Of a stretch of DNA of 54,700 nt, positions 18,202 through 40,183 are shown piece by piece. The notes under the pieces are model-generated. The model searched no databases and was not told the origin of the DNA. It saw only the letters and a list, made by a program, of their open reading frames with translations. The translations under genes and the position numbers were made by a program. Each line of letters begins with the position of its first letter. Position 1 is the stretch's first letter. This stretch comes from a bacterium (GTDB lineage Bacteria; Electryoneota; Electryoneia; Electryoneales; Electryoneaceae), in NCBI GenBank assembly GCA_019912845.1, contig JAIOHU010000136.1:1-54700 (forward strand), given 5' to 3'.

Positions 18202-18240
18202 CGACATAACCCCCAAGCCTTGTATCCACAGGGTTTGGGG
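18192..18240 (+). other. attL: left attachment repeat within ssrA 3' end
   Basis: The repeat begins at GGCGTCTCC in the ssrA acceptor stem and runs through the terminator hairpin. It matches 39008-39056 at 47 of 49 positions. The tmRNA gene upstream is complete, so this is the copy that keeps ssrA functional. Confidence 0.85.
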
Positions 18241-19855: not shown

Positions 19856-20068
19856 ATGCACGTAAAAACTGCTGAGATTCTTGAAGACAAGGAACTCTGC
19901 AATAAAGTAAGCCAGGCGTACAAGCTTGGATATCCAAAACGATACATACAACAAAAGTTTGATGTATCGCGTCGACAATTAGAACACATTGTCAGAATTT
20001 TTACTCGTACCACACCCTATGTGGGTAGTGGATCTTCAATTATAACCATAGAGAAGGATGAAGATTAA
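19856..20068 (+). CDS. Small HTH-like DNA-binding protein, putative regulator or excisionase
   Basis: The product from this start has 70 residues. The centre, YKLGYPKRYIQQKFDVSRRQ followed by LEHIV, reads as a helix-turn-helix of the kind that recognises DNA (a KFDVSRRQL-type recognition helix). I chose ATG 19856 because AGGAG lies nine bases upstream. In-frame ATG codons at 19814, 19826 and 19850 are earlier, but 19814 falls inside the operator-like repeats. It overlaps the next gene by 11 bp, so the two are translationally linked. Its position ahead of a primase-helicase and behind operator-like repeats suggests an element regulator, but an excisionase role is also possible. Confidence 0.65.
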   Translation: MHVKTAEILEDKELCNKVSQAYKLGYPKRYIQQKFDVSRRQLEHIVRIFTRTTPYVGSGSSIITIEKDED

Positions 20069-22181
20069 TCTATCTATCAATTCAAAAAAACGGATTGAAC
20101 AAAAGAAGGAAGGTAACACAGTAGTTGATATTCCAATTCAGGAGCTAAATCTTAAGGACAGGGATCAGGTAAATAAAACCTTCCGAAACTATGTCCACAG
20201 TACAAATGTGTGGAAAAAAGGAACCACAGCATCAAAGGATAACTACCGTGGTATGGTAGGGATTCCGTTGGATTATGATGATGGAATAATTTCTCTGAAA
20301 CTCGCGAGAGAATATTTCGCCGACTACAAACATATTTTGTACACCTCTTCCAGTCATCAGGAAGACAAACCAGATCACAATGGTATTCAGGATCGATTTC
20401 GTGTAATATTACTCTTCGATCCATCCGAGGGATTGCACTATACAGATTTTGATGAGGCTGATCGTGTATTCTCTTGGGCAAAACGTCAGTTTGATGGTAT
20501 TGATGCAGCGATACTGCATCGGGGTTCAAAGTTATTTCCGAATGCGAATCCTGACGAATCCAAGTATCTTGTTGAAGTTAACGACAAAGGTGAGTGGTTC
20601 AGCATACCCCCGGAAGATCTTGATAGGATCGAAAAGCAGCCTGAATTAGATCATTCCGAAGGTAAAAAGTACATCAATTATGACACCCAGATCGTCTTAA
20701 AGAATGGGAACAAGATCATATTGGAAACACTACGACGATTCCTACCAACACAACCAAATAATAAGGCGATTTGCTACTGCCCATTCTGTGATGATATAAA
20801 TTCAGATGGTCCATCTGCTTTTGTTCAGATGACACCTGCTGGATTTATTGGACTGTACTGCTCGCACTGTAAATCTGAATATGAAAAAGGTACTGACAGC
20901 GACAGGAAATCGTCACAGTACTATTATTCTGAAGATCCAGTTGAACCAGGGATGTTCATGCTGGAAGATAAACTGATGCGTGTACAGAAATCACGCTATG
21001 ACGCACACATTGTACGATTGCCAATTGACTATGTACATGAACGCCAGCAGAAATTTGTGAAAACATATCTGGCTCGTAGACGAAATATAGCTTCGGCTAA
21101 GTTGACTGTTGAACGCTATTGCAATGTAGTATACCCGAGAGTCGATTTCGTTCTTGAATACTCGGAATCGAAACTTATGATTCAGATACCATCACCAATT
21201 AAACCCACTATCAATGACAACAAATTTGTTGATGCTTGGTTAGAGGAATTATTTGGAGAGTACAATGAATTCATCAAGCAATGGTTGGCAGTCTATTGCT
21301 TCACAAATTTCAAACGACTACCGGTAATAGTGCTTACAGGTGAACGTGGTGTTGGAAAGACAACATTTGCTGAAGTAGTCTCAGCAATATTCCCTGATCA
21401 ATCTGCTGATTGGTCGGGAGAACATACATCATTCAACTCTTACTTCGAAAAGAAGTTGTTGGTTGTTGATGAAAATAACGTCAGTAGGAAGGAACAGTAT
21501 ACACAGCTAAAAGCAGTTACTGGAAATGACTATCTGACAGTAAACCAAAAATTCAAACCTGAATATCGGGTGCGAAATAACACACACATTATTCTTACTA
21601 CGAATGAAAAACGTCCGTTGTATCTGACCAAAGATGAAATGCCTGTGAACGAACACAACAACAACTTTTTCATTTATGAGATTAATCGTGCGAATACCAT
21701 TAATCCACATATCAAAGAACAATTGCTGGAAAGATTGGGGACATATATCCATACTGAACTAAGAAAACAGTATAAAGTGTGGAACTCCGATCTGAATAAA
21801 AACAAGTCACGGTACAGTATACCTTGCCCGATTACACAACTGGAAAAACATTTGTTTGAAAGTGCGAGTACGAGTGTGGAATCAGATGCTGATCTCGTTG
21901 CTGAGGCGATTGTTCGGGGTTATCCCCTCTACGGTGAACGTTTTGGGGGAGGTGATCACATAAAAAAACTTGAATTCCAACGAATCTGCAAGGGATTAGG
22001 AATGAAACAAGCCACTCATCAAAACGCAATCTTTCATCGTTTGCAGGATATCAAAGTATTGTCCGCAGGTGATGAAATTCGTGAATCTGACAAGCGGTTT
22101 GGATGGAAGATCCTTCGCCGTAAAGATTACTATGGTGAAGATGGTAATCGAAACGTAGGATCTGATACCTTGTATCACTAA
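20058..22181 (+). CDS. Primase-helicase replication protein (AEP-like primase, zinc finger, SF3-type helicase)
   Basis: The 707-residue protein has three parts. About 40-180 resembles an archaeo-eukaryotic-type primase: acidic pair in LDYDD (72-75), SSSH at 97-100 and RFRVILLF at 113-120. A zinc-binding segment follows with C241-x2-C244 and C268-x2-C271. About 400-600 is a helicase of the phage/plasmid D5 or VirE-like type: Walker A GERGVGKTT (428-436), Walker B LLVVDE (467-472) and IILTTNE (511-517). Proteins of this layout open and prime origins of phages, satellites and plasmids. A cluster of hexamer repeats lies just downstream, which could be its origin. The gene is intact and overlaps the HTH gene. 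Exact family names would need a profile search. Confidence 0.85.
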   Translation: MKINLSINSKKRIEQKKEGNTVVDIPIQELNLKDRDQVNKTFRNYVHSTNVWKKGTTASKDNYRGMVGIPLDYDDGIISLKLAREYFADYKHILYTSSSHQEDKPDHNGIQDRFRVILLFDPSEGLHYTDFDEADRVFSWAKRQFDGIDAAILHRGSKLFPNANPDESKYLVEVNDKGEWFSIPPEDLDRIEKQPELDHSEGKKYINYDTQIVLKNGNKIILETLRRFLPTQPNNKAICYCPFCDDINSDGPSAFVQMTPAGFIGLYCSHCKSEYEKGTDSDRKSSQYYYSEDPVEPGMFMLEDKLMRVQKSRYDAHIVRLPIDYVHERQQKFVKTYLARRRNIASAKLTVERYCNVVYPRVDFVLEYSESKLMIQIPSPIKPTINDNKFVDAWLEELFGEYNEFIKQWLAVYCFTNFKRLPVIVLTGERGVGKTTFAEVVSAIFPDQSADWSGEHTSFNSYFEKKLLVVDENNVSRKEQYTQLKAVTGNDYLTVNQKFKPEYRVRNNTHIILTTNEKRPLYLTKDEMPVNEHNNNFFIYEINRANTINPHIKEQLLERLGTYIHTELRKQYKVWNSDLNKNKSRYSIPCPITQLEKHLFESASTSVESDADLVAEAIVRGYPLYGERFGGGDHIKKLEFQRICKGLGMKQATHQNAIFHRLQDIKVLSAGDEIRESDKRFGWKILRRKDYYGEDGNRNVGSDTLYH

Positions 22182-22994: not shown

Positions 22995-23756
22995 TCATGC
23001 TGCTTCCCCCTGTTGCTTCTGTTTACGATCACCGGGATCATCAAAATCGGACTCAGTGATACCAACACCAAACACAGCTTTGCATTCTTCACGTACCTGC
23101 ATGGCAAGGTTCAGTTCATCCTGTGATACCACACGATCTACCTTGCATTCAACTTCTGCCCAACGAAAACCGTTACGTGCGACATCAGCCAGGGTAAACC
23201 GTGTAACCACTGCAATGGAAGGTGCTTTGGAACGCGCTAACCGTGCAACATGATTACGCCAGTGTTTGATACTGGTAGGCGACAGGTTGAATACGATCAA
23301 CTGATAACGATCATCCATGTTGGTCAGCACAAACAACCGTATCTTGTCCTTGGCATCCTTCGCATGGATGGTACTTTCAGGTGAACTGGTCACACGTCCA
23401 TCAACTGCTGTGTATCGTGGAACTTGTTCCCCTTCAACCCAGAAAGCACTTACCTTTTGATGGTATACAACGATACCTGCAAAGGTGTTGCCTTCCAGAT
23501 CAACCTGTGCTTCCTGATCATCAGAATAGGATTCACCCAGATCAAGGAACATACGGTGTCTTCCACTCGGGCTATGATCAATACGTACACGAGGGAATAC
23601 CGGTTGCAGGTTTTCAGTCATGATTGCAACTTCAGTGTCCAGATCAAGTCCCTGAAGGGATGAAAGTTCATCTTCAGAAATGATCGCCGATCCCTTATCA
23701 CCATTTACTTTTGATGGGGTAAATCCGTTGCTGTTTGTAGTTCTTTTCCTTGTCAC
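22995..23756 (-). CDS. Hypothetical protein of the element's nuclease operon
   Basis: The 253-residue product is not recognised. It has no membrane segment and no clear enzyme motif. The middle (about 50-190) is beta-rich and protein-like, and the C-terminus is rich in charged residues (ESDFDDPGDRKQKQQGEAA). The acidic tail and its company with a nuclease and DUF932 protein would suit a single-strand DNA-binding or recombination-accessory protein, but that is inference only. GTG 23756 overlaps the nuclease stop as GTGA with GAGGAGG just upstream, so translation is coupled to the nuclease frame. This coupling matters because the nuclease gene carries an internal stop. Confidence 0.75.
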   Translation of the reverse strand: MTRKRTTNSNGFTPSKVNGDKGSAIISEDELSSLQGLDLDTEVAIMTENLQPVFPRVRIDHSPSGRHRMFLDLGESYSDDQEAQVDLEGNTFAGIVVYHQKVSAFWVEGEQVPRYTAVDGRVTSSPESTIHAKDAKDKIRLFVLTNMDDRYQLIVFNLSPTSIKHWRNHVARLARSKAPSIAVVTRFTLADVARNGFRWAEVECKVDRVVSQDELNLAMQVREECKAVFGVGITESDFDDPGDRKQKQQGEAA

Positions 23757-24676
23757 GCCGCCTCCTCAAGGTTTTGTACAAGTTGTTGAATCTGTGACTT
23801 CTGATTACGGTTCAAACCCATACCACAACTATCTTTTGCACACATTTCCGCGTACGGGCATAACGGACAAGTGTGATAAGACGGATTTCTTGGAAAGACA
23901 CCACGTCTTATGTTGGTTGCGACCTTGCTAAGGTCTTGTTTTAGAGATTTAATTTGCTCTTCAGATCTTGCTGTGGTTCTTCTTGGATCACCACGTTCAT
24001 CACCGATCTGATTGTTCTTGGTCTTCCGTTTGTAAGGAATGTGATCACGCAAATGATACCAGGTGATCTTCAATCTGTCCGGTGGGATATCCAGCAAACG
24101 GAGCGTACCATCAGATGATTTGAACGTTGCATCAGCACAAGCTAACGCATACAGACCGAACTGATAATCTACATCCAGAAACGCTTGTGATGGTGCAAAC
24201 TTCGATGTTTTGAAGTCCAAGAGTTCATACATCCCATCTGGATGTTTGCGGATCTGATCAACTGTACCACGGAAGATACCTGCACGTCCTACCTACAGAA
24301 CAAATGTGGATTCATTCAGAATCACATGTGCATCCCAGTTGTAGTCCTTATCCCGATAGTTATCCAGCATTTCAATAGCTTCTTTAACCAGTTTATCCAC
24401 TACCTTATCACGATCTTCTTTCCAGAACACAGGAGTAACTGCTTCTTCGCTATCGAATTCGTGATACTGCAACACTTCACGATATCTTTCTTCGATATTC
24501 AGTTCCCAGTTGTGTTGGTGCATTTCTGATAGTAGTTGATGGATAATGGTTCCATGTAATGCTGCTGAACTGCGGAAAGTGGGTAGGATTTCATCTACAT
24601 AACGATACTGGAAGTTTTTGGGACACCACAGGTAGGACTTAATCATCGATTGCCTTAAGTAATCGATCTGAACCAC
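23753..24676 (-). pseudogene. Cas4/RecB-like PD-(D/E)XK nuclease interrupted by an in-frame TAG
   Basis: Both halves lie in one frame (308 codons from GTG 24676), split only by a TAG at 24295-24293, codon 128. The first half has the SxxxxxxCPKNFQYRY motif of Cas4/AddB/RecB-like nucleases. The second has GTVDQIRKHPDG and LLDFKTSK (motif II-III D and K) and a C-terminal CPLCPYAEMC with another Cys. Four cysteines in these positions suggest a 4Fe-4S cluster, as in Cas4 and AddB. The family resects DNA ends or acts in phage recombination. The rest of the sequence shows no decay. It may be a recent nonsense mutation, a sequencing error, or two fragments translated separately from ATG 24232. TAG ends neighbouring genes normally, so general recoding is unlikely. 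Confidence 0.8.
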
Positions 24677-24683
24677 CCCCTTT

Positions 24684-25439
24684 CTAGTTTGGTGTCAGGA
24701 AATACTGGCTGACACGTTTGTTCAAATTGTCTGCACTGAAGGATTCTGCACGGGTAAGTACATCAGTTGCTGCATTGTATACACCCCACTGTGAATCCTC
24801 TTCAATCGCATGGAAAATTCTTGCACGTGTTGTCCACGGCATATCAGTTTCCGTGAAGAATTTCTGGACATCAGAACGTTTCATCCGTTTCTTCGTCATC
24901 TGTGATAGCATCGGAAGAACCAGGTGAAGACGATTGCCAAGCAGTTCCAACTGTTGTGCAGCATATCGCAGTTCCTGATCGAAGTTGGTATCACCCCAAT
25001 GTTTGAAGCGAAATCCACCGAGCAGGAAGGACAGCATCATACCGTTTTCACAGACCAGACGTACCGCATTGAATTCCAATCCGAATGTTGTGCTTCCATC
25101 ATACGAATTGACTGCATCCAGTGTCACCGCAACCAGATCACCAACCTTCACTTCACCACATACATCATTCAACACATACCGCTGTCGAAACTTCTTGCCG
25201 TTGAACATCGGTGTTTGCTCTGCAAAACGAAGCCTTGTACCCTCGAGCAATTCTTCAGCAACACCAACCACTTCACGATTGGGTACCAGCTTGTAATCCC
25301 CGCTAACCACACCCACTTCCTGGCTGTGTCCATTGGGATCAAGCACAACCGATTTACGGCTGCTGACTTTCCCTTCAGGTGTGCGGAGAGCTTGAAGCTG
25401 TACATCCAGGAAAGGACCTAACACATCTGTTTGTTTCAT
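24684..25439 (-). CDS. DUF932 family phage/plasmid-like protein
   Basis: The 251-residue protein matches the DUF932 (phage/plasmid-like, TIGR03299-type) family by its NSYDGSTTFGLEFNAVRLVCENGM segment and the N-terminal VVSGDYKLVPNREV. The molecular role of this family is not established; members occur in phages, plasmids and islands. It heads the leftward operon with the nuclease and the 253-residue protein. ATG 25439 has GGAGG four bases upstream. The gap to the nuclease gene is 7 bp and includes GGGGGTGG as its likely binding site. Confidence 0.85.
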   Translation of the reverse strand: MKQTDVLGPFLDVQLQALRTPEGKVSSRKSVVLDPNGHSQEVGVVSGDYKLVPNREVVGVAEELLEGTRLRFAEQTPMFNGKKFRQRYVLNDVCGEVKVGDLVAVTLDAVNSYDGSTTFGLEFNAVRLVCENGMMLSFLLGGFRFKHWGDTNFDQELRYAAQQLELLGNRLHLVLPMLSQMTKKRMKRSDVQKFFTETDMPWTTRARIFHAIEEDSQWGVYNAATDVLTRAESFSADNLNKRVSQYFLTPN

Positions 25440-25935: not shown

Positions 25936-27030
25936 TTAAAAGTTCCTTAAAGAATCAACAACATATTTGACCTGTTCTTCGTTCATTTCTGGGAAAAGGG
26001 GTAGAGATAAGGTTTTAGATGCGTAGCTTTCAGTAATTGGAAAGTTTCCACTTTGATATCCCAAAAACTCGAATCCCGGATGCATATGTAATGGAATTGG
26101 ATAATGCATGTTTGCATTCACTCCATTGCTTTTTAAGCTAGCAAACAGCTCATCACGTTTCTCATAAGTGACAGCAAAGACATGGTAATTGCTCTTGTAC
26201 CCGTCTGGTATTTTTTGAAGTGCCAAGTCAAACTGGGAGAGTTCCTCACGATAAATTGCCGCGATTTTTAGTCTGGCATCATTCCAGTTGTCCAAATAAG
26301 GTAGTTTTACACGGAGAAATGCCGCCTGCAATCCATCCATCCTAGCATTTTGACCAATGAGATCGTGGACGAACTTTTCAGTGGAACCATGATCACGATA
26401 TTTACGGCAGCGTTCAGCGACATCATTATCGTTAGTTGCAATTGCACCCGCTTCACCGAGCGCGCCCAGATTTTTCCCTGGATATAATGAAAATGCAGCA
26501 GTATTTCCAAGTGCCCCTGTCTTTTTACCATGAAAGGTTGATCCTGGGGAGTGTGCGCAGTCCTCAAGAACCCATAAATTATAATTTACTGCAATGCCAT
26601 GGATTTTTTCCATATCCGCAGGAAGTCCAAGCAGATGAACAGGAAGTATTCCAACAGTTTTTGATGTAATTGCTTGCTCGATCTGATTTGGATCAATGCA
26701 CCATGTACTCCTATCTATATCCACGAATACAGGTGTCCCACCTGCCAGGATAACAGCTTCAGCGGTAGCATAAAAGGTCATTGCCGGTACAATTACCTCA
26801 TCACCTTCGCCGACTCCCAGTGCTTGGAGAGCGATATGCAGTGCAGCAGTCCCGCTTGATACACCAATTACGTTATCAACTCCAAGATATTGAGCAAATT
26901 CTGTTTCAAATGCTGAAACCTCTTTTCCCAGAACAAATGAGGAATCTTGGAGTACCCGTTCAAATGCAGCTATAAGTTCAGGTTTCAGATTGACATGTTG
27001 AGCGTGTAAATCAAGATTGGGGATATTCAT
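25936..27030 (-). CDS. DegT/DnrJ/EryC1 sugar aminotransferase (island)
   Basis: The 364-residue PLP enzyme has its lysine at K186 (YPGKNLGALG) and the aspartate D157 (LEDCAHSPGS), like the chromosomal aminotransferase at 12673-13842. The family transfers an amino group to keto sugars bound to UDP or dTDP; FdtB- and WlbC-type 3-aminotransferases are the closest in motif style. It is the last gene of the nine-gene leftward operon, 24 bp after the radical-SAM gene. A ketosugar could come from the Gfo/Idh oxidoreductase of the same operon. No acetyltransferase is encoded in the operon, so either the amino group stays free or the chromosomal beta-helix enzyme acetylates it. Confidence 0.88.
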   Translation of the reverse strand: MNIPNLDLHAQHVNLKPELIAAFERVLQDSSFVLGKEVSAFETEFAQYLGVDNVIGVSSGTAALHIALQALGVGEGDEVIVPAMTFYATAEAVILAGGTPVFVDIDRSTWCIDPNQIEQAITSKTVGILPVHLLGLPADMEKIHGIAVNYNLWVLEDCAHSPGSTFHGKKTGALGNTAAFSLYPGKNLGALGEAGAIATNDNDVAERCRKYRDHGSTEKFVHDLIGQNARMDGLQAAFLRVKLPYLDNWNDARLKIAAIYREELSQFDLALQKIPDGYKSNYHVFAVTYEKRDELFASLKSNGVNANMHYPIPLHMHPGFEFLGYQSGNFPITESYASKTLSLPLFPEMNEEQVKYVVDSLRNF

Positions 27031-27054
27031 TTTGCGCCCGTAGAGATTAGAAAT

Positions 27055-28479
27055 TTAATGTTTAAGTTTCAGGTTTTGGAAATAGTTCGATAAATGCGAA
27101 AAACCAACCTTATCCCAGCCCTGAATTATATTTATCAAACGAGATAATCCGACAAGAATCGTGAAAGAAGGTATTCTTAACACCCTGTGAATTTTTTTAT
27201 CAACCAAATAGCGTATCAGCCATTCTGGGAGATGAGGAAGAAAGGCAAGTATAAACTGTACCCCAAGCCATTGCTGACTTTTTTTATCTGATGGAAATAG
27301 ATAAGAATGTTCTCCAAATCCAATACCGTGCGAATACTCTTCAATTTTTTCAGATGTGAGTAAGTTCTTTTCAGAGGCGATCCTCATCCACTCAGATCCA
27401 GGCAAAGGCGTAAACCAGTACACTTTTATCGCATCCGGTTTGTTCTTCAAATAGAAATCTGCCGTTTCATCGATTTCTTCAGGGTGCTCGTTTGGTATAT
27501 TGATAATGTGGTCTACCTCAACTCTGATGCCACTTTCTTTGGCAGCCCTGATTGCCTCTGATGCAGTAAGATTCGATTCGAGCCGATTCAGCATTTTTCT
27601 CGATTCGGGATTTATTGTCTGAACCCCTAGTCTAATCGAAAAACACCCTGCTTTTTGGAGTATAATTGCTGTTTCCCCATCCATCAATTCGGGGTGAGTG
27701 ATACAATGAAACGGCAGGTCTATCCACCTGGAATAGTCAAGAAGAAATTTGCGTAACCAGGGTTTTGACAGTGTAAACACATCGTCAACAAAATAAACGG
27801 ATTCCACTGGATAATTTCGGACTGCCCATTCCAGTTCTTTTATTACATGGTCTACTGAACGCTGTCGAACCCTACTACCATTATTTCTTGCTCCAGCGCA
27901 AAAAGCACATGTGAAAGGACATCCACGTGAAGTTGAAATAAGATAATCTCTTGCCATTTCTGGATGATCAAGGTAAAAAAGATGTTTTGCCGGAATAGGG
28001 AGATCATTTATATTTGAAAGTGGCGGCGAAGTCGTAGCAGGATTGTTATTTCCGTAAAGCCAGTCTGGTGTAATGTCATTTCGCACAGTTCTTTCCAATG
28101 CCTCGCAAAAAACGGAATCCGCTTCACCACACACAACTGCATCAAATCGACCATCCTGCAGTGCAATCCTTGGAAGTGCTGTAGCATGTGCACCACCTGC
28201 AATAGTAGTGATCCCTCGTTCCTTTAATGCTCGTGCTATCATAGCCATGGACTGAAAAGTTGGGCTGACTAGTGAAAAGCAAACGATATCGGGTTTGAGA
28301 GTGAGTACTTTTTCTACTGCCTCTGATTTTTGTTGCAAAGTCAGCGGTCTATACCCTTTGATATAATTGCCAATATCTATCTCTGCGAGGGCTACTGAAT
28401 GCCCGGAGTTTTCAGCCAGGGCAGCGAGGATGGAAATTCCGAGGTGTTCGTACCCATCGTATGGAAAGACAACGTTCAA
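27055..28479 (-). CDS. B12-binding-domain radical-SAM protein (island, first)
   Basis: The 474-residue protein has an N-terminal cobalamin-binding-like Rossmann domain (about 1-135) and the radical-SAM cluster motif CPFTCAFC (C187, C191, C194) preceded by STSRG. The C-terminal about 90 residues are hydrophobic and not recognised. Class B radical-SAM proteins of this layout include methyltransferases and other enzymes acting on unactivated carbons of sugars, lipids or peptides. In a glycan operon, C-methylation of a sugar or a lipid-linked intermediate is a reasonable guess, but the substrate cannot be read. It overlaps the preceding gene by four bases (ATGA). Confidence 0.85.
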   Translation of the reverse strand: MNVVFPYDGYEHLGISILAALAENSGHSVALAEIDIGNYIKGYRPLTLQQKSEAVEKVLTLKPDIVCFSLVSPTFQSMAMIARALKERGITTIAGGAHATALPRIALQDGRFDAVVCGEADSVFCEALERTVRNDITPDWLYGNNNPATTSPPLSNINDLPIPAKHLFYLDHPEMARDYLISTSRGCPFTCAFCAGARNNGSRVRQRSVDHVIKELEWAVRNYPVESVYFVDDVFTLSKPWLRKFLLDYSRWIDLPFHCITHPELMDGETAIILQKAGCFSIRLGVQTINPESRKMLNRLESNLTASEAIRAAKESGIRVEVDHIINIPNEHPEEIDETADFYLKNKPDAIKVYWFTPLPGSEWMRIASEKNLLTSEKIEEYSHGIGFGEHSYLFPSDKKSQQWLGVQFILAFLPHLPEWLIRYLVDKKIHRVLRIPSFTILVGLSRLINIIQGWDKVGFSHLSNYFQNLKLKH

Positions 28480-29792
28480 GAGGAATCTCCTCTTAAATTA
28501 CTGAGTTGGTTGTCTGCATTTCTGTTTATTGGGTAGCTGGCTTTCAGACTCAATAGTGATTTTATCAAGACACGGATCATATATGCAGCATTCCAGATGC
28601 ATTTCTGGCACAAGGTAAATGTATACAACAATCCTTGTCGTAGCTGACGGATTTTCACATTAACCTGACCATCCAGTGATGCCGCCACTGTTCCGGGTCG
28701 AGGATTAAATGCATGTACTTGAACATTGTTGAAATAATTCTCTGCGAAGAAACGGAGGGTTGTTACAAAGTCGAACCAAGTTTCGCCGGGAAATCCAGTG
28801 ATAACCTGGGTTTGCAGGACAGTTCCAGGGCTGACTCTGCGGATCGATTTTGCAAGATGCCTGAACTCAGTAAGAGAATAACCACGTCTCATACCATTCA
28901 GAACCCTATCACTACCACCATTCAACGCAAGATGGATAAATTTAATTCTCCCGGCCGCCAGGAGAGGTATCAACTTATCCAACCTTTCAATCAGCCAGCG
29001 GGGGTGTGCATAAAAGAGTAGTAAATCAAAGTTGCCAGGTATTTCGAATATTTTTTTGAGCAATGTTGTAATATCGTCTCCGTTATCCCGACCCCAAGCT
29101 GAGAGTTCTGTTGCAGTTAATAAAATTTCATCATGACCGGAATCCACACCTTTCTTGACTTCGTTGATAATCTTATCCATGGGACGGCTTTTCAGCTTAC
29201 CCCGCGAGAATCGGATCGCGCAGTAGGTACATGCACCCAGGCACCCTTCAGCAATACGGACGACATAACTATCAGGTGAGTGGTCATACATCAACAATCG
29301 ATCCAGATGATTTCGTTTATCTCTATCAAGGTGTTTCCGCAAATTTGTCAGATGACGAGCTATTAGGCGACGAAATGGTTTTTCATACTTGAAAAATGGT
29401 TCAGCAATTTGATTCGGTCTGAATTGATCCCAGCTTTTTCCATCAAGAGGAAAAAAGTTTGAAAGGTGTTCTATATCGGTCGCGGGAATAATAATGTTAT
29501 CAGGGAAATACTGTTTGCATTTTTCTGGGGCAATTTTCGGAAGACAACCAGACAGAACAACAATTCCCCTGCCACTAAGTTGTTTATCAATTTCCAGTGT
29601 TTTTTGAACAGATTCAGTCTCTTTTTCTGAGTGATAGGCACAACTGTTTATGAGGACGACATCTGATTCTTCGATGGAATTAGTCCAGAGAAATCCTGCT
29701 TGTTCAAGCCAGGCTGCAGCGTGGCTGCCATCCAACTGGTTTTGCGGACAACCACCTGAATTTGCCCATATATGATAACGACGATTACCCAT
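28476..29792 (-). CDS. MiaB-like methylthiotransferase, CDKAL1/archaeal MtaB-style clade, no TRAM domain
   Basis: The 438-residue protein has the UPF0004 domain with three cysteines (C15, C51, C83) that bind the second cluster, and the radical-SAM motif CLGACTYC (C184, C188, C191). The AIRFSRGKLKSRP and ALNGGSDRVLNGMRRGY segments resemble the CDKAL1 / archaeal e-MtaB branch more than bacterial MiaB or RimO. The usual C-terminal TRAM domain is missing; after about residue 380 comes an unrelated hydrophobic stretch. Classic members add methylthio groups to tRNA adenosines. The context in a glycan operon, between two other radical-SAM genes, suggests a changed substrate. The start overlaps the upstream gene by eight bases. 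Confidence 0.82.
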   Translation of the reverse strand: MGNRRYHIWANSGGCPQNQLDGSHAAAWLEQAGFLWTNSIEESDVVLINSCAYHSEKETESVQKTLEIDKQLSGRGIVVLSGCLPKIAPEKCKQYFPDNIIIPATDIEHLSNFFPLDGKSWDQFRPNQIAEPFFKYEKPFRRLIARHLTNLRKHLDRDKRNHLDRLLMYDHSPDSYVVRIAEGCLGACTYCAIRFSRGKLKSRPMDKIINEVKKGVDSGHDEILLTATELSAWGRDNGDDITTLLKKIFEIPGNFDLLLFYAHPRWLIERLDKLIPLLAAGRIKFIHLALNGGSDRVLNGMRRGYSLTEFRHLAKSIRRVSPGTVLQTQVITGFPGETWFDFVTTLRFFAENYFNNVQVHAFNPRPGTVAASLDGQVNVKIRQLRQGLLYTFTLCQKCIWNAAYMIRVLIKSLLSLKASYPINRNADNQLSNLRGDSS

Positions 29793-30885
29793 TCCTAATT
29801 CCAGCCAGTGCTGTTTTTATCAATTTCGATGCTATCTTTCTTTGAGTGCTGCGTGATTTCATCATAGAGGCACTTAGAAAGCACTGATGCCAGCAATAAC
29901 ACTCTTCTTCATCGACTTTTCTCATGGAATCTTTCAAAACTGAGCTTTGCCATATATTTCTGAAATCATATCCTGCACTACGAACATTTCCAATGACTTC
30001 TCCTCTAAGTTCACATATTGGTACATCACCATTGGGATATAGCACTGCTGTTTCACTCAATGCACTGCAACGAATAGGCATTTTATCTGACCTCGCAATC
30101 TCAGCGATCAGTTCTTTCTGAACGAAATCCTTTGAGTTTACAATTTTCGTAAAATTGCTGTAGCCTCTAAGTTTTTCAGTCTTCAGCTGTTGCTCAGCAA
30201 ATTCTGAAATTTTCAAAAACACATCTGTATACTTTTTCGCAGCTTCTGGTTCCCTTGTTTGACCACGTACAAGGATTGGGGTAAGATTGTCAAGATCAAG
30301 ATTTTCTACAGCCCATTTTGCGGTATCGAAACTAGAATTGTAATTCAATCCGGAAACACAAATTCCACATCCAAGACGTAAATTTGGGAAATCTGATTTT
30401 AACCTGCTTACTACCTCAAATGAGGAAACAGCTCGTTTAAATAAACCTTGAACCCCCCTGATTTCATCACACTCTTCTCCAAGTGCATCAAGAGAGATAT
30501 CGACTGTCAAAGCTGCATCAGGGTGTTCTCCAAGATATGATATTAGAATATTTTCAAGTTTAAATGGATGATTTCCATTACTGCAGAAGGTGATATTCAA
30601 TGGATTATTGTAGCGATGTACCAGTTTTAAAATATCCGAAACATGATTTTGGAGTTCAGGGCTGCCACCAGTGATCGTAACTTGAACCATTGATCCAAGC
30701 GATTTCAACACGGATTCTATTTCTTCCAGGCTTAATTCATCCGTGTTGCTGTTTATCTGACGCCAGTAAAAACAGTGCCCGCACATTGCTTCACATCGAT
30801 TTGTAACAAAGAAAATCAAATATGAGGGAAGTGTCGGCATTGGGGAGGCCAACCGCGCAAGTGATTTTACCTGGCTGATTTTCAT
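29785..30885 (-). CDS. Radical-SAM protein with SPASM-like C-terminus
   Basis: The 366-residue protein has CEAMCGHC (C31, C35, C38), the canonical radical-SAM cluster motif, and TITGGSPEL as the glycine-rich motif. A C-terminal region with further cysteines (VLYPNGDVPICELRGEVIGN, then CYCWHQC) fits a SPASM or twitch domain that holds auxiliary clusters. Such proteins mature peptides or oxidise sugar and alcohol substrates, as in dehydrogenases of aminoglycoside synthesis. The substrate is unknown. It starts one base after the end of the sugar transferase gene. Confidence 0.85.
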   Translation of the reverse strand: MKISQVKSLARLASPMPTLPSYLIFFVTNRCEAMCGHCFYWRQINSNTDELSLEEIESVLKSLGSMVQVTITGGSPELQNHVSDILKLVHRYNNPLNITFCSNGNHPFKLENILISYLGEHPDAALTVDISLDALGEECDEIRGVQGLFKRAVSSFEVVSRLKSDFPNLRLGCGICVSGLNYNSSFDTAKWAVENLDLDNLTPILVRGQTREPEAAKKYTDVFLKISEFAEQQLKTEKLRGYSNFTKIVNSKDFVQKELIAEIARSDKMPIRCSALSETAVLYPNGDVPICELRGEVIGNVRSAGYDFRNIWQSSVLKDSMRKVDEEECYCWHQCFLSASMMKSRSTQRKIASKLIKTALAGIRNG

Positions 30886-30886
30886 C

Positions 30887-31492
30887 TTACCAACTTCTTC
30901 GATTTATCAGTGAACGTGGAGTAATGAGAAGTATAAGAGTATCCAGTAATAGAGTATGATGTTGAACGTAAAACATATCAAGGCGACGCATAACCTTATC
31001 AGAGTTGGCATTCTGACGAAAAACCTGCCAATAACCCGTAATTCCTGGTGGAATACTCAATAGCTGATGAACATCATTGCCATACAAGTACAGCTCTTCA
31101 GGCAATTTGGGTCGTGGACCTACAAGGCTCATATCACCTTTAATAACGTTAAATAACTGTGGGAGTTCATCCAGGTTAGTTTTGCGCAATACCATTCCAA
31201 AAGGAGTAACACGTGGATCATTATCAAGTTTAAAGTTGGTTCGAAACAAATCCTTCTGGTTAGTGTCTAGAAACTCATCATTGTTCAAATGCATGGTTCT
31301 GAACTTCAGCATGTTGAATGAAATGCCATTTATTCCAATTCGTCGGCTGCGGTAGAACACTGGTCTTCCATCTTTGACTATTATCAGAAGTGAGATAATC
31401 AACATTAAGGGCAGGAATAAGATCACAAAAAGGGAACTTAAGATGATGTCCAGTATACGTTTTGCTGAATTCTCATCTTGAAAACCATTCAT
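30887..31492 (-). CDS. Initiating sugar-phosphate transferase (PglC/WcaJ family)
   Basis: The 201-residue protein is the short monotopic form of the bacterial sugar transferase family. One N-terminal hydrophobic helix (ILSSLFVILFLPLMLIISLL) is followed by FYRSRRIG, FNMLKFRTM, the catalytic Asp-Glu dyad in TNLDELPQ, and SLVGPRP. It transfers sugar-1-phosphate from a UDP-sugar to undecaprenyl phosphate at the cytoplasmic face, the first step of glycan assembly. The N-terminal four-helix domain of the WcaJ type is absent, as in PglC. The gene overlaps the Gfo/Idh gene by four bases (ATGA). Confidence 0.93.
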   Translation of the reverse strand: MNGFQDENSAKRILDIILSSLFVILFLPLMLIISLLIIVKDGRPVFYRSRRIGINGISFNMLKFRTMHLNNDEFLDTNQKDLFRTNFKLDNDPRVTPFGMVLRKTNLDELPQLFNVIKGDMSLVGPRPKLPEELYLYGNDVHQLLSIPPGITGYWQVFRQNANSDKVMRRLDMFYVQHHTLLLDTLILLITPRSLINRRSW

Positions 31493-32538
31493 TTATTCAA
31501 CTCCACAGTCATACCCTGATTTTCAAGTGATGCACGCGCAGCTTCAAGTATTTTTACCACTTTCCTGCCAAATTCCAAGTCGACAATAGGATTTCGTTTT
31601 TCTTTTATGGATGCCAGGAATTCATAAATTTCTGCTTTCAAAGGTTCGCCATTTTTCAGTGGAATTTCACTAGTTGACAATGCAGAATTAACCAGTTTTT
31701 GAGATTTTCCATTTCTTAACATTTGAAGTGGTGGAGCTTCAGTGAAGTGAGTCAGTTTTTCTGATCCATAGTCTGACTGCAGAACCAGTGTGCCTTCCAT
31801 GCCTTCGGCAAGAATACGACGTCGTCTCACTCCACTTGACCAGGCAACTTCAACCTTGCAAATGAGCCCATTTTTCCAGGCGAGTACGAGTATAGCGCGA
31901 TCGGGAGTGTTGAACTGTAATCTCTCTATCCCCCAAGCATTTACGCGAACCGGAAGCGTATCGACAACTGAGAGCATAATCGCAATATCATGCGCAGCGA
32001 CCTCTGTTAGAACATCAGTTGAACGGTAAATGGGGCCTAAATGAGTTCTACGGAGTGAAAGGTGACGCAATTCTCCGATCTCACCTCTCTTTATACGAGA
32101 TGTAAGTTCAATGATGCCAGGGCTGAAAGAAGTTATATGCCCTACCATTAAAACATAGCCGTTCTTATGATTGCTCAGTTCCTCGGCCTCCACAGTTGAC
32201 CAGCAAAGTGGCTTTTCAACAAATACATGCTTTCCAGAATCCAGACATTTTCTCACCAGCTCAAAATGATCGGGTAACGGCACAGCAATAACTACAGTTT
32301 CAATTGAATCATCTGAAAGGATCGATTGCAAATTCTTCATTATTTTAGAATCAGGATATTGTTCCAGTATCAACCGTGATCGATTTTCATCTTTGTCGTA
32401 TACGTGAACCCTGCAACCCAATTCATGCAGCACCCGAACCAGGTTGGGTCCCCAATACCCCACACCAATCACAGCAACATCAATGCTATCTAACGCAACC
32501 GAAGAAGTGTTTCGTCCAATATCCATATCCGCACCCAC
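31489..32538 (-). CDS. Gfo/Idh/MocA family sugar oxidoreductase (island)
   Basis: The 349-residue protein has the NAD-binding loop GVGYWGPNLVR near residue 21 and the EKPLCW motif near 112. It resembles the oxidoreductase half of the fusion protein at 10952-12625 in the loop and EKP regions. The family oxidises or reduces sugar hydroxyls and keto groups. With the aminotransferase at the end of the operon it forms a keto/amino pair for an amino sugar. Unlike the chromosomal relative it carries no acetyltransferase domain. Confidence 0.88.
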   Translation of the reverse strand: MGADMDIGRNTSSVALDSIDVAVIGVGYWGPNLVRVLHELGCRVHVYDKDENRSRLILEQYPDSKIMKNLQSILSDDSIETVVIAVPLPDHFELVRKCLDSGKHVFVEKPLCWSTVEAEELSNHKNGYVLMVGHITSFSPGIIELTSRIKRGEIGELRHLSLRRTHLGPIYRSTDVLTEVAAHDIAIMLSVVDTLPVRVNAWGIERLQFNTPDRAILVLAWKNGLICKVEVAWSSGVRRRRILAEGMEGTLVLQSDYGSEKLTHFTEAPPLQMLRNGKSQKLVNSALSTSEIPLKNGEPLKAEIYEFLASIKEKRNPIVDLEFGRKVVKILEAARASLENQGMTVELNK

Positions 32539-32544
32539 TTTAAT

Positions 32545-33564
32545 TCACTTTTTCTGAAATGGTTTTACTGATCCATTGGTCAAGATTTCTAGATGGTATA
32601 GCGAAGAACCTAGAAATACTGCGATTCCACGAGTAAAATCTAATATCAATGTTGTGACTGTTATTTGTACAACATTTGACCTGAATCGATCGGTTAGAAA
32701 GTTTATCAACTTGATTCGGAGAATAAACCAAGTTGTAACAGAGACAATTAACCATTTAAGTTCTCTCATCAAGAGAAATAGTCCAATTAATCCACACACC
32801 AGAACTGCGGCAATGCTTGTCGATCCCGCGTGGCGATTATTAGTCAGACGAACCCTGTTTTTCCAGTGGATATAAACATCCTCGCTACCTTTGCGAAGAT
32901 CATTCAGGATCAGTTCTTTATAATTCAAATGTGCCAGATGCTGCGCAGTTGCCTCAGGAACAGCATACACTTTGTAACCGTTTTTTGTAAGTCGAATTCC
33001 CAGATCGATATCCTCAGGTCCAGCACCTGCGAATGTTTCTGAAAAACCATTTAGTGACCGAAACAAATCAAATCTGACAGCACCCAGGGCTGTCCAGAAT
33101 TGATCCTTTTGCAAACTGGCACTTTTGCTGTATGTATACGCCAGGTATTTCTGCTTATATGCTTCAGAAAATCGTTTTCCATAAACATTTTGAGAGTACC
33201 TGCCCATTGTCGCATCAGCGACACCCTCACGAATTGGCTGGACTAAATAGTGAATAGCGTTATTATCAACGATTACATCTGCATCAATAAAAATCAGGAT
33301 GTCACCGGTAAAACCTTCTGCACCAATGTTTCTTGCCCTCCCTGCACCTGCACTGCCATCTGTTTTACGTATGTTCACATTAAAGGGTTTAGCCAATTCC
33401 GCAAGAATAGCATTTTCCCCGTCATCAACCAGTACAATTTCCGTTTCCCATCCTACGGCTTTCCTCAGGGCGGAAAGGCATTTTTCAATTGTTTGGCTGG
33501 CTTTTCGGCAGGGTACGATGATACGCACTTCCTGTTTTCGAATTTCCCAATTCACTGTCTTCAC
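32545..33564 (-). CDS. Family 2 glycosyltransferase (first in operon order after radical-SAM)
   Basis: The 339-residue protein has a GT-A fold typical of family 2: VRIIVPCRKASQTIEKCLS at the start, VLVDDGE, the DXD-type IFIDADVIV and GAGPEDIDLGIRL. A hydrophobic stretch near the C-terminus (SIAAVLVCGLIGLFLLM) suggests membrane association. It adds a sugar to the lipid-linked glycan in the cytoplasm. The frame opens at GTG 33564, overlapping the upstream radical-SAM gene by 80 bp. An internal GTG at 33528 just before RIIVPC could be the real start, reducing the overlap to 44 bp. Confidence 0.88.
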   Translation of the reverse strand: MKTVNWEIRKQEVRIIVPCRKASQTIEKCLSALRKAVGWETEIVLVDDGENAILAELAKPFNVNIRKTDGSAGAGRARNIGAEGFTGDILIFIDADVIVDNNAIHYLVQPIREGVADATMGRYSQNVYGKRFSEAYKQKYLAYTYSKSASLQKDQFWTALGAVRFDLFRSLNGFSETFAGAGPEDIDLGIRLTKNGYKVYAVPEATAQHLAHLNYKELILNDLRKGSEDVYIHWKNRVRLTNNRHAGSTSIAAVLVCGLIGLFLLMRELKWLIVSVTTWFILRIKLINFLTDRFRSNVVQITVTTLILDFTRGIAVFLGSSLYHLEILTNGSVKPFQKK

Positions 33565-34933
33565 TTAATCCTTTTCCTGATAGCAGACGTACAACAGCTC
33601 CAATCTTTGGTTTCAAATAGTTAAACATTCCACGAAATTTACCATTCATAAGGAAAAACGAGAGATACCCGATAATCTGATAGATCATCAAAACACGTCT
33701 GGGTAGTCTCTTGATCTTCAGCGCACTTCCGCCGTACCGATCATAAGCATCCCAGTCTTTTTCCAGGTTCAATTTGTATCCAAACTTTCCTTCACTTGCG
33801 TAGTCGTATATTTTTGTCCCAGGATACGGAACCATGACTCCCAATCCGATCTCGAATGGATTTATTCTCACCGCTGCACGAATGGTATCCCATATAGATT
33901 TATGTGTTTCTCCCGGGTGACCCAGAATAAAAAAGGTAAAAGGTTTAATCCCCGCTCTCTTTATTTTCTGCACTGCCTGATCAGCTTCTTCGATTTTGTA
34001 GTTCCGACCACTATTTTTTAACACCCTGTTGTTACCTGATTCAACACCGATGCAAATCAAATTGCAATTTGCTCGTTTTGCCTTTTCAAGCAACTCCTCA
34101 TCAACCAGTTTCGGATGAGTCATACAATTGAAATAGGATATTTGGGGGATGTTTGTTCTCAGAATAGCATCGAGAATCTGATGTGTCGTTTCATTTTTAT
34201 AGAGGAAAATTTCGTCGTGCAGGAACACTTTTTCAGCACCATAATACCTGACAGCCTTCTCCCATTCTTCAACTACTGCTTCCGGATCCCGCCAACGTAC
34301 ACGGTCGCCCAGAACACGCATGCAGTACCCACATTTAAATGGACAGCCTCGACTAGCAAAAAGTCGGTACTCACTATCTGGATGAGTTTTGAACCAGTCT
34401 TTTTTGTAGTACAAATCGACAGCTGGTTGTGGTATTGTTTTGAGGTCAAGAAAATCGCTCTGTCTTCCGTTGAAGTGGGTATCTCCATTTCTACGGAAAG
34501 CCAGCCCCTTTATCTTTTCAAAATCACAGGTGCCATCCAACTGTGCTAATAGCTCTGTGAAGGGTACTTCTCCTTCACCTGCAATCGAAAAATCAAGCTG
34601 AGGGATTTCCTTCAGCGTCTCTTCAGGGCGTGCACTGGTGTGCGGTCCTCCTAATATGGTATGGATAGACGGCTTATTCTCTTTGACAACTTCAAAGATT
34701 TCTTTTGCACGAACCATCTCATGTGTCATTGCTGTTACACCGACAACGTCACATTTCCTCTGTGTGATTTCGGAAAGTAAATCTCCCGCACCCATCCGAT
34801 GGAAAGCAGCATCCAGAATTTCCACTTTATGACCTTGTCCGCGTACGTAACCCGCAACATAGGCTAATCCAAGCATATGGGAATGATACCAGTTAAAGGC
34901 ATCACCCCAGGGTTTCACCAGGAGAACATTCAT
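33485..34933 (-). CDS. B12-binding-domain radical-SAM protein (island, second)
   Basis: The 482-residue protein has an N-terminal cobalamin-binding-like domain (about 1-135; ILGGPHTSARPEETL) and the radical-SAM motif CPFKCGYC (C197, C201, C204). The later IGVESGNNRVLKNSGRNY and FILGHPGET motifs are typical of class B radical-SAM enzymes. It is distinct from the protein at 27055-28479. The C-terminal tail, from about residue 410, has a hydrophobic segment and is not recognised. The chemistry is probably methylation or another carbon-centred step on a lipid or glycan. It overlaps the upstream glycosyltransferase by four bases and the downstream one by 80 bp. Confidence 0.85.
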   Translation of the reverse strand: MNVLLVKPWGDAFNWYHSHMLGLAYVAGYVRGQGHKVEILDAAFHRMGAGDLLSEITQRKCDVVGVTAMTHEMVRAKEIFEVVKENKPSIHTILGGPHTSARPEETLKEIPQLDFSIAGEGEVPFTELLAQLDGTCDFEKIKGLAFRRNGDTHFNGRQSDFLDLKTIPQPAVDLYYKKDWFKTHPDSEYRLFASRGCPFKCGYCMRVLGDRVRWRDPEAVVEEWEKAVRYYGAEKVFLHDEIFLYKNETTHQILDAILRTNIPQISYFNCMTHPKLVDEELLEKAKRANCNLICIGVESGNNRVLKNSGRNYKIEEADQAVQKIKRAGIKPFTFFILGHPGETHKSIWDTIRAAVRINPFEIGLGVMVPYPGTKIYDYASEGKFGYKLNLEKDWDAYDRYGGSALKIKRLPRRVLMIYQIIGYLSFFLMNGKFRGMFNYLKPKIGAVVRLLSGKGLSEDSELGNSKTGSAYHRTLPKSQPNN

Positions 34934-35967
34934 TCACTGTCCTCCTGTTTTGAACCGAATCTGATCAGCAAACCATTAACAATACCTGCCAGGGAACCCA
35001 GAAAATGGGCGGTATGATATGTGATTATGGAAAGTGCAGTTAATGAGGTGAATGCAAACGACCGTTTTTGAATTGTCGCAGCATAGGCTGCGAGAAAAGA
35101 AATCAATGTGTAGATACATGCAGCTTTGGCGAAAATGGAAAAGGACTTTCGAAATATTGAGTATACTACGATGCCCAGTCCAGAAAACAAGGGAATGGTA
35201 TGCCTTTTATTCAAGCATGCGTTATGTCTAATTGAAGCGATCATCCGGTGTCTGGCATTCTGGAATCCCTTGCTGAAAAGTAAGGGGAAAGATTCAATAG
35301 TGCGGTATCTGGATACAATAGTTGGCGAAAAACAGGAACGCGCTCCGGTGTCAATCAACCGTTTATACCAGTCACAGTCTTCACCTCGAACCAGGGATTC
35401 GTTGAAAAAACCTGCTTTATCTACGTACTCACGTTTTACTGAATGCCAGTGCCCTATTGTATCAGCTTTAAATTTTCGACGAGTGAATGAATTGGTGCCG
35501 ACAGCAAAACGAGAAGAAAAAGCTTGAATGATTGTGTTTGGGATTAAATCCCTGGAGGGTGTCCAAGGAACCACACGTCCGCACACCATATCCCACTCAC
35601 CTGACAAGAGGATACGAACAACATTTTCAATGTATGTTTTGCTGGGAATCGCGTGACCAATATACAATGCAACAATATCGCCCTTACATTTTTTCAGCGC
35701 GATGTTTAATCCCTGCGCAATGCCACCATGTGGATTTTCATACATACGAAGCCAGGTAGGTTGCGAGGACTGGTAGGATTCTAGGGTCGAACGCGTACCA
35801 TCATTTCCACTGACGGCAAGGACCACTTCAATTTTATCTTTGGGATAGCTTTGATTCAAGAAGGAATCGAGACAATCCTTAATTACCTTTTCTTCGTTTC
35901 GAACCGCCATGAAAACGGATACTACTGGAAAATATTGATTTGCAATATCTTGTGTTGAGTCAATCAT
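34930..35967 (-). CDS. Family 2 glycosyltransferase heading the island glycan operon
   Basis: The 345-residue protein begins VVSVFMAVRNEEKVIKDCLD, a classic family 2 start, and has ALYIGHAIPS in the metal-site region and VRGEDCDWYKRLIDTG as the acceptor-site ED motif. In the metal-site region the usual DXD is replaced by GHA, as also seen in some members. C-terminal hydrophobic helices (about 245-335) anchor it at the membrane. It is the first gene of the nine-gene operon. Its start at ATG 35967 lacks a strong binding site. Confidence 0.87.
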   Translation of the reverse strand: MIDSTQDIANQYFPVVSVFMAVRNEEKVIKDCLDSFLNQSYPKDKIEVVLAVSGNDGTRSTLESYQSSQPTWLRMYENPHGGIAQGLNIALKKCKGDIVALYIGHAIPSKTYIENVVRILLSGEWDMVCGRVVPWTPSRDLIPNTIIQAFSSRFAVGTNSFTRRKFKADTIGHWHSVKREYVDKAGFFNESLVRGEDCDWYKRLIDTGARSCFSPTIVSRYRTIESFPLLFSKGFQNARHRMIASIRHNACLNKRHTIPLFSGLGIVVYSIFRKSFSIFAKAACIYTLISFLAAYAATIQKRSFAFTSLTALSIITYHTAHFLGSLAGIVNGLLIRFGSKQEDSE

Positions 35968-36610: not shown

Positions 36611-37747
36611 GTGAACTGGCAATCTTACCGACGAATAACCAGTACAGGAAATTTTATCAATGAGATTGACAGTATTCGTTTCATTGCTATCATTGCTGTC
36701 GTTCTTTTTCATCTGACAGGTTACTTTGCTATAAAAGCACCTTCCTCAGTACCATCTGATTTAATCAGCACATTCCTCATTAGTGTAATAAGAAAAGGTT
36801 CGATTGGAGTAGAACTCTTTTTTGTGATTAGTGGATTTATCCTTGGTCTTCCATTTGCCAACCAGCATATCAATCGTGGTAAGAAGGTAAACCTCAGGCA
36901 ATATTTTGTTCGACGATTTACTAGACTGGTACCCCCTTACATCACTGTTATGTCCTCCCTTCTACTTGCACATATCTATATTTTTAACAACTACAGCCCA
37001 GAAGTTGCAATTTTCGACTACTTGGCATCCATTGTATTTTTGAATAATATTATATTTCCAGATCACCTCCCATATATGACCGGGGTCGCATGGAGTCTTG
37101 AAATCGAAGTACAATTCTATTTCATGGCTCCTCTACTTGCCATTGCATTTAGACTTCCCCGTTTTAGAAGGATTTCAGTTTATGTATTTGCGGTAATCCT
37201 GATTATAACGGCAAACCACTTTATCCAATACCCATTTAAATTTCTGGCTGAATGGCTGCACTTTTTCTTGATTGGTTTTCTGCTTGCAGAAATCTATGTT
37301 GTTAGAAAGGAGATTCCTGCTCAAAACATTTTTCCACCCATGTTTTATGCTATAACCGGGATAATTGCGTTTATTGTATTGTGGTTTACCACGAATACTG
37401 AATATCTATTGCTGGAATTTATCCAAGCCGCATCCATTTTCTATTTCTACTATGTCGTATTATTCTGTAATGTCTTCTTATTCTTTTTCAAAAATCCGCT
37501 TGTTGCAATCCTCGGTGGGATGTGCTATACGATTTACTTAATTCACTATGTGCTAATTTCGCTAACAACAAGGTTCATTCTTCCAAGTCTATTACAAATG
37601 CCTGATGCATCAGCATATTTTGGATTTCTTATCCTGATGACTGTGTTTATAGTTGTGATATCCGCAGTTGTCTTTAGAAGAATTGAACGACCTTTTATGG
37701 CTAAAAACTGGCATCTTAAACTTATTCATACCCTTCGTCAATTGTGA
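36611..37747 (+). CDS. Acyltransferase 3 family membrane protein
   Basis: The 378-residue protein begins with the OafA/NodX-type signature: IDSIRFIAIIAVVLFHLTGYF (split here across about 20 residues), with the catalytic His in that helix, and GVELFFVISGFILG. Around ten membrane helices follow. The family O-acylates sugars of O-antigen, peptidoglycan or exopolysaccharide at the membrane, usually with acetyl groups. The start is GTG 36611; AGGAGA lies 15 or more bases upstream, which is long. It is divergent from the glycan operon and probably decorates its product. Confidence 0.88.
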   Translation: MNWQSYRRITSTGNFINEIDSIRFIAIIAVVLFHLTGYFAIKAPSSVPSDLISTFLISVIRKGSIGVELFFVISGFILGLPFANQHINRGKKVNLRQYFVRRFTRLVPPYITVMSSLLLAHIYIFNNYSPEVAIFDYLASIVFLNNIIFPDHLPYMTGVAWSLEIEVQFYFMAPLLAIAFRLPRFRRISVYVFAVILIITANHFIQYPFKFLAEWLHFFLIGFLLAEIYVVRKEIPAQNIFPPMFYAITGIIAFIVLWFTTNTEYLLLEFIQAASIFYFYYVVLFCNVFLFFFKNPLVAILGGMCYTIYLIHYVLISLTTRFILPSLLQMPDASAYFGFLILMTVFIVVISAVVFRRIERPFMAKNWHLKLIHTLRQL

Positions 37748-38955: not shown

Positions 38956-39007
38956 TTATGATGTTATAGATGTATGTTGATGATTGGAAATTGTTTCCCA
39001 GGATCTG

Positions 39008-39060
39008 GGCGTCTCCACGACATAGCCCCCAAGCCTTGTATTCACAGGGTTTGGGGCTAT
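39008..39060 (+). other. attR: right attachment repeat with displaced ssrA end and terminator
   Basis: Positions 39008-39056 match attL 18192-18240 at 47 of 49 positions, starting with GGCGTCTCCACGACATA. The hairpin ATAGCCCC (39022-39029) / GGGGCTAT (39053-39060) is a second version of the ssrA terminator, followed by CTTTATT. No tmRNA body lies to its left, so this is the displaced copy. Confidence 0.85.
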
Positions 39061-39096
39061 CTTTATTCAGATGTGATAACTAGGAGGTTAATAAAA

Positions 39097-40173: not shown

Positions 40174-40183
40174 GGGAAGCACA

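Follow-up and report, generated by a model that had tools for sequence, protein, structure and literature searches.

Organisation of the nine-gene locus

The window analysed here is a stretch of 54,700 nucleotides from an uncultured bacterium of the family Electryoneaceae, phylum Electryoneota (assembly GCA_019912845.1, contig JAIOHU010000136.1, positions 1 to 54,700 of the forward strand). Its central part carries a cluster of nine genes, g1 to g9, which combines genes for glycan assembly with four genes for radical S-adenosylmethionine (radical SAM) proteins. The nine genes, from the first to the last of the operon, are:

34930..35967, minus strand: g9, membrane-associated family 2 glycosyltransferase (GT2), 345 aa, first gene of the operon (PF00535, 67.8 bits)
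33485..34933, minus strand: g8, B12-binding radical SAM protein, 482 aa (PF04055, 97.8 bits; PF02310, 95.6 bits)
32545..33564, minus strand: g7, membrane-associated GT2, 339 aa, GTG start (PF00535, 71.2 bits)
31489..32538, minus strand: g6, Gfo/Idh/MocA dehydrogenase, probably a sugar-nucleotide 3-dehydrogenase, GTG start (PF01408, 67.4 bits)
30887..31492, minus strand: g5, predicted initiating monotopic phosphoglycosyl transferase (PGT), 201 aa (PF02397, 199.6 bits)
29785..30885, minus strand: g4, radical SAM protein with a C-terminal SPASM-type auxiliary-cluster domain (PF04055; PF13186, 26.8 bits)
28476..29792, minus strand: g3, radical SAM protein of the methylthiotransferase family without TRAM (PF00919, UPF0004, 51 bits; PF04055)
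27055..28479, minus strand: g2, B12-binding radical SAM protein, 474 aa, TTG start (PF04055, 83.9 bits; PF02310, 57.7 bits)
25936..27030, minus strand: g1, DegT-family sugar aminotransferase, last gene of the operon (PF01041, 401 bits)

A first-pass annotation of this DNA had described nine overlapping or near-touching genes comprising two GT2s, a PGT, a Gfo/Idh oxidoreductase, an aminotransferase and four radical SAM proteins, and both the arrangement and the composition were borne out. All nine open reading frames (ORFs) are intact and lie at 25936-35967, every named Pfam domain of the nine proteins scored over its curated cut-off, and the four proteins with a Radical_SAM domain (84, 60.5, 42 and 98 bits) all carry the CxxxCxxC motif. 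In the upstream half g9/g8 overlap by 4 nt, g8/g7 overlap by 80 nt, g7/g6 are separated by 6 nt and g6/g5 overlap by 4 nt; in the downstream half g5/g4 are separated by 1 nt, g4/g3 overlap by 8 nt, g3/g2 overlap by 4 nt and g2/g1 are separated by 24 nt. Clear Shine-Dalgarno sequences were identified at several starts (g8, AGGAGGA; g7, AGGAAAAGG; g2, GAGGAG), and the start of g7 lies inside the 3' end of g8 with a good ribosome-binding site. In scans for promoters of the sigma-70 type and for terminators, sites were no more frequent than in shuffled sequence. The basis for the transcription unit is therefore gene packing, and judged by that packing the nine genes are a real operon.

Genes for amino-sugar formation and glycan assembly

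The best relatives of g1 in the PDB include QdtB (E = 1e-98), DesV (2oga; 1e-89) and WbpE (4e-73), which we take to be C3-aminotransferases. The best NCBIfam model for g6 was NF040723 (UDP-N-acetylglucosamine (UDP-GlcNAc) 3-dehydrogenase), with 119.5 bits, under its cut-off of 450. Among plasmid relatives, an adjacent Gfo/Idh-DegT pair of Gloeothece was the first listed for g1 and had the best E-value for g6; this pair lies within a polysaccharide cluster, with acyltransferases on its flanks. We infer that g6 and g1 are an ordinary 3-amino-sugar pair, a 3-amino sugar being the natural reading and UDP-GlcNAc most likely the substrate of g6. GnnA-GnnB and WbpB-WbpE are pair types of UDP-GlcNAc 3-dehydrogenase and 3-aminotransferase, and g6 and g1 resemble them as a Gfo/Idh and DegT pair for a 3-amino sugar but differ in that they stand four genes apart and lack the usual partner acyltransferase. 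GnnA and GnnB are mentioned in PMC5644692 and PMC7663294.

The g5 protein has the DE catalytic pair, the motifs NLDELPQL and GPRP, a single strong N-terminal hydrophobic segment (residues 21-39) and the PDB relatives WbaP and PglC; family criteria make a strong case that it is a monotopic PGT of the PglC/WbaP C-terminal type. Both GT2s have membrane segments, that of g9 being a hydrophobic segment near residue 276. Taken by family evidence, a lipid-linked amino-sugar glycan is a well supported prediction for the product of the operon. The host genome encodes, outside the operon, four Wzy_C proteins over cut-off.

A methylthiotransferase-like protein without TRAM

The g3 protein contains the UPF0004 and radical SAM domains, and neither PF01938 nor PF18693 (TRAM) was found in it. 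It came under the cut-off of each NCBIfam model of its family: 242.9 bits against 251 for TIGR00089, 208 against 314.7 for MiaB-like-B, 187 against 357 for MtaB, 178 against 357 for RimO and 162 against 355 for MiaB. Alignment of 28 sequences revealed that its cluster cysteines C15, C51, C83, C184, C188 and C191 are invariant. The distance from the third methylthiotransferase cysteine to the radical SAM motif is 96-111 residues in g3 and in its relatives at four loci (L020, L070, L073 and L094) and 59-80 residues in the other 23 aligned relatives and in the MiaB, MtaB and RimO of the host; the interdomain insert of g3 comprises 30 aa. The phylogenetic tree showed that g3, L020, L070, L073 and L094 form one clade (support 97/95) apart from MiaB, MtaB, RimO and the archaeal methylthiotransferases. 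TRAM loss is directly seen in g3, L070 and L073 only and is not directly visible in L020 and L094, because both are cut by contig ends. The TRAM-less genes L070 (9968-11188), L073 (9920-11131) and L094 (9923-10864) come from Staskawiczbacteria and Aminicenantes, and L073 adjoins genes for acyl-CoA carboxylase, the opposite strand bearing glycan genes.

In the AlphaFold2 model of g3 (predicted local distance difference test 84, predicted template modelling score 0.81) the C-terminal end is a single long helix, 379-419, and the nearest solved structures were MtaB, MiaB and RimO. Thus g3 shares with these enzymes the UPF0004 and radical SAM domains, the six cluster cysteines and the overall fold, but is distinguished from them by the lack of TRAM, the longer interdomain spacing and the separate clade. 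The host genome carries its own MiaB, MtaB and RimO, all over equivalog cut-offs. PMC10702137 gives tRNA and, in the case of RimO, ribosomal protein S12 as the only substrates known for methylthiotransferases. We tentatively suggest that g3, as a member of a fifth, TRAM-less methylthiotransferase clade, may add sulfur (methylthio) to a carbohydrate or a lipid carrier within a mobile surface-glycan operon that holds three more radical SAM modifiers. If so, a carbohydrate or its lipid carrier might conceivably be a substrate class new for the family. The g3 gene is the unusual part of the operon, and the TRAM-less clade is the most valuable lead.

The B12-binding and SPASM-type radical SAM proteins

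Both g2 and g8 have an N-terminal B12-binding domain followed by the radical SAM core, each over the Pfam cut-offs, and belong to class B. The best PDB match of g2 was the diol-dehydratase AprD4 (E = 1e-16), which was also listed for g8. For g8 the best NCBIfam match was BchE/HpnJ, far under cut-off, and ladderane-type lipid enzymes were also among the matches. Methyl transfer is a candidate activity for g2 and g8, neither of which reached an equivalog model. The two proteins resemble AprD4 and the B12 radical SAM methylases in domain order and fold family, but lie far under every curated family cut-off. No match to g8 was found at E<=1e-60 in the order of the host, and at E<=1e-50 in the phylum only matches of 32-33% were found.

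The likeness to AprD4 bears on the nature of the product. In place of a surface glycan, the operon could make a small glycosylated natural product, either secreted or intracellular and for example aminoglycoside-like, since Gfo/Idh, DegT and B12 radical SAM enzymes are typical of aminoglycoside pathways and AprD4 heads the PDB matches of g2 and is listed for g8. The PGT and the two membrane-anchored GT2s point however to a polyprenyl-linked product, and no carrier protein, exporter or resistance gene was found among the nine; we regard such a natural product as very improbable, and retain the lipid-linked surface glycan.

Analysis of g4 indicated a SPASM-type domain (PF13186, cut-off 21.5 bits) with the C-terminal GX4C and CxCxxxC block present. 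Eight cysteines (C31, C35, C38, C273, C291, C329, C331 and C335) are invariant between g4 and its relatives of 46% identity (genome G001) and 23% identity (Parabacteroides). The g4-like gene in G001 (L146, contig C122) has a g7-like GT2 (38%) directly upstream; the remaining upstream part of this cluster is probably missing, not absent, because the contig apparently begins with adapter. The apparent sequencing-adapter sequence occupies positions 1-130 of L146, as seen by eye from the translation. In Parabacteroides the g4-like gene adjoins a nucleotide-sugar-binding glycosyltransferase, and that of G019 (L147) lies in an operon with a Wzx flippase, an AMP-binding enzyme, an M14 carboxypeptidase and a polysaccharide pyruvyl transferase. 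No g4 relative was found in the phages collection. SPASM genes 23-28% like g4 were also noted at L147-L150 (genomes G019, G017, G021 and G018; family f3).

A weak match of g4 to the tetraether lipid synthase Tes, and C-terminal amphipathic segments in g2, g3 and g8, recall enzymes that act on lipids. Together with HpnJ and the ladderane-type enzymes among the best NCBIfam matches of g8, they agree with the explanation that a surface glycan is made but the main target of the radical SAM proteins is the lipid carrier or an acyl chain, in the manner of HpnJ, HpnR or Tes. We consider this unlikely: AprD4, which both g2 and g8 match, is a sugar enzyme, the operon holds no lipid-synthesis gene, and the partners that recur beside the related genes are glycosyltransferases. 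Action of the radical SAM proteins on the sugars of the glycan is therefore kept as the preferred reading.

Two groups of B12 radical SAM genes were considered and set aside. Those of the phylum itself are an unlikely source of the operon's genes, being 25-33% identical and arranged in tandem arrays. Those of genome G039 were rejected as orthologues; one locus (L103) lies beside EamA and ispF-type genes (named by eye) and the other (L104) in an unrelated glycosyltransferase cluster. As a separate observation, L012, L013 and L014 (genomes G037, G021 and G016; families f3 and f7, same phylum) hold about 7-8 B12-binding radical SAM genes within 20 kb, many of them in tandem.

Occurrence of related genes

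A collection of 84,980 species genomes was scanned with a g3-motif pattern and every match was confirmed by tblastn with g3; the pattern guide rows in alignments A1 and A3 are hand-typed motif strings, not natural sequences. The scan revealed a single relative of more than 34% identity, L020 of a Bacteroidota metagenome-assembled genome, with 52%, a rarity that holds for motif-bearing g3-like genes and not for the other families, because the scan used the g3-motif pattern. No comparable g3 relative was found in 39 genomes of the host's phylum, nor among sampled genomes of the class (294) and the phylum (396) of L020. At L020 the g3-like gene, inside which the contig ends, stands beside a g9-like GT2 (36-37%) and a glycosyltransferase of the Glyco_trans_1_2 family. 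Searches of viral contigs with g3-based, g3/L020-pair and g9/L020-pair queries returned no relative, and plasmids gave only 22-30% relatives of g2, g3, g4 and g8 among the matches listed.

The recurring pairs are thus g9 with g3 (L020) and g7 with g4 (L146), each consisting of one GT2 and one radical SAM gene. A single full set with two partial relatives neither proves nor refutes a joint function of the four radical SAM genes. Recombination might have brought them together as a loose mixture in a glycan locus that swaps genes, with some of them being passengers without a joint pathway; there is no second complete copy, the partial relatives keep the glycosyltransferase/radical SAM pairs only, G039 has no g4 relative, and radical SAM genes are found in other glycan loci of the host's phylum. 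The nine genes nevertheless overlap and are all intact, so that the operon contains no pseudogene, unlike the element that carries it, where the nuclease gene is broken; a mixture of this kind seems improbable to us. A joint role of the four proteins in modifying one glycan is accordingly retained as the working interpretation.

A tmRNA-integrated element carries the operon

The first-pass annotation had also placed the operon on a mobile element, which was confirmed by a tmRNA gene, an integrase and an att repeat. The element has a size of 20.8 kb, is integrated at the tmRNA gene (17837-18202), is bounded by att repeats and contains the operon and a divergent acyltransferase gene. The 49-bp direct repeat (18192-18240 and 39008-39056) is identical at 47/49 bases, and its left copy consists of the tmRNA 3' end and flank. 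The other features of the element are:

18192..18240, plus strand: attL, tmRNA 3' end and flank (49-bp direct repeat)
18317..19405, plus strand: tyrosine integrase of the element (PF00589, 91.4 bits; 49-50% relative at the tmRNA gene of G002)
20058..22181, plus strand: DUF5906 protein with helicase-like domain, backbone (PF19263, 60.6 bits)
22995..25439, minus strand: backbone genes for a 253-aa protein, a PD-(D/E)XK nuclease (in-frame stop) and a DUF932 protein (order kept in L120)
36611..37747, plus strand: Acyltransferase_3 (OafA-type), divergent neighbour of the operon within the element (PF01757, 110.9 bits)
39008..39056, plus strand: attR, right end of the element (49-bp direct repeat)

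A sister element (L120; G002:C49, another genus of the same family) likewise lies at a tmRNA gene, and its identities to the present element are 49-50% for the integrase, 67% for the DUF932 protein, 56-60% for the nuclease and 60% for the 253-aa protein. The nuclease gene (23753-24676) is broken by an in-frame stop while its relative in L120 is intact, and relatives of the DUF5906 protein with 47-48% identity adjoin related integrases. The cargo of this sister element (L120, 7657-13709) includes two large proteins of secreted type, whose C-terminal sorting motifs are Por-like, and no glycan operon. Because the sister element shares the backbone and carries other genes, the operon is cargo of an element family and is probably exchangeable. 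O-acyl decoration of the glycan by the OafA-type protein is possible.

Adjoining attR, a B12-binding sensor-like ORF (38974-40173) is followed by an overlapping ORF in another frame (39959-40819); the two are possibly a single frameshifted gene, and their neighbours are a response-regulator gene and a gene for a 1722-aa multi-PAS kinase.

Proposed pathway

It appears probable that the swappable operon builds an undecaprenyl-linked amino-sugar oligosaccharide that is radical-modified and is completed by host enzymes. We infer each reaction and the product, the four radical reactions included, from the protein sequences. In the first step g6 would oxidise C3 of a nucleotide sugar and g1 would transaminate it to the 3-amino sugar. 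By family, g5 would, with strong support, move a sugar-1-phosphate from a nucleotide sugar onto undecaprenyl phosphate at the inner membrane, and the membrane GT2s g7 and g9 would attach further sugars. The proteins g8, g2, g4 and g3 would modify the sugars of the glycan. Since the C-termini of g2, g3 and g8 are amphipathic, this probably happens at the lipid-linked stage. Speculatively, and in an order that is equally so, g8 and g2 might C-methylate or deoxygenate, g4 might oxidise, couple or epimerise, and g3 might insert sulfur or methylthiolate a C-H bond. Finally, a presumed flippase and the Wzy_C-family ligases or polymerases of the host would complete and attach the glycan, a step proposed because the operon supplies neither activity. 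Among the variants of the heavily modified sugar suggested at first, the thio option gains some weight because g3 keeps every catalytic cysteine but not TRAM.

Several results weigh against this proposal. None of g2, g3, g4 and g8 reached any curated NCBIfam cut-off, and no N-acetyltransferase, flippase, polymerase or ligase was found among the nine operon genes. Given the MiaB, MtaB and RimO of the host, g3 would be redundant for the known roles, which does not reveal its own. No recognised glycan genes lie alongside L070 and L094, and the TRAM-less clade is therefore not dedicated to glycans. None of the other genomes searched yielded the complete nine-gene set.

Comparison with known systems

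The literature search, made in open-access PMC papers, found no characterised cluster with this gene set, in agreement with the first-pass statement that no characterised glycan pathway with it is known. The further suggestion of an undescribed system is weakened by two plasmid precedents; the full set itself was not met elsewhere in the genomes searched. The 36-kb plasmid of Brachyspira hyodysenteriae carries several radical SAM genes among glycosyltransferase, nucleotide-sugar and rfb genes, and a role in lipooligosaccharide or surface glycosylation was proposed for this region (PMC4267127). It resembles the operon in being mobile DNA with several radical SAM genes in a glycan context, but it is a plasmid with rfb/rhamnose genes, and the part of its gene table consulted names no MiaB-like gene or Gfo/Idh-DegT pair (PMC4267127). 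Plasmid 1 of Lawsonia intracellularis similarly has two radical SAM genes among GT2, GalE and sugar-kinase genes, one radical SAM protein showing about 25% identity to g2 over 364 aa; it differs in having five ordinary methyltransferases, no annotated PGT and no MiaB-like gene. Mobile glycan clusters with several radical SAM genes are thus, chemistry aside, a kind already known in outline.

The TRAM-less clade, in which the catalytic cysteines are intact and one branch lies in a glycan operon, offers a concrete candidate, open to testing, for a substrate class new to the family. Judging by the repeated pairing of one glycosyltransferase gene with one radical SAM gene, bacteria may regularly use radical chemistry to diversify their surface sugars and spread it as swappable cargo. 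Gain, loss or exchange of the element would alter the cell surface.

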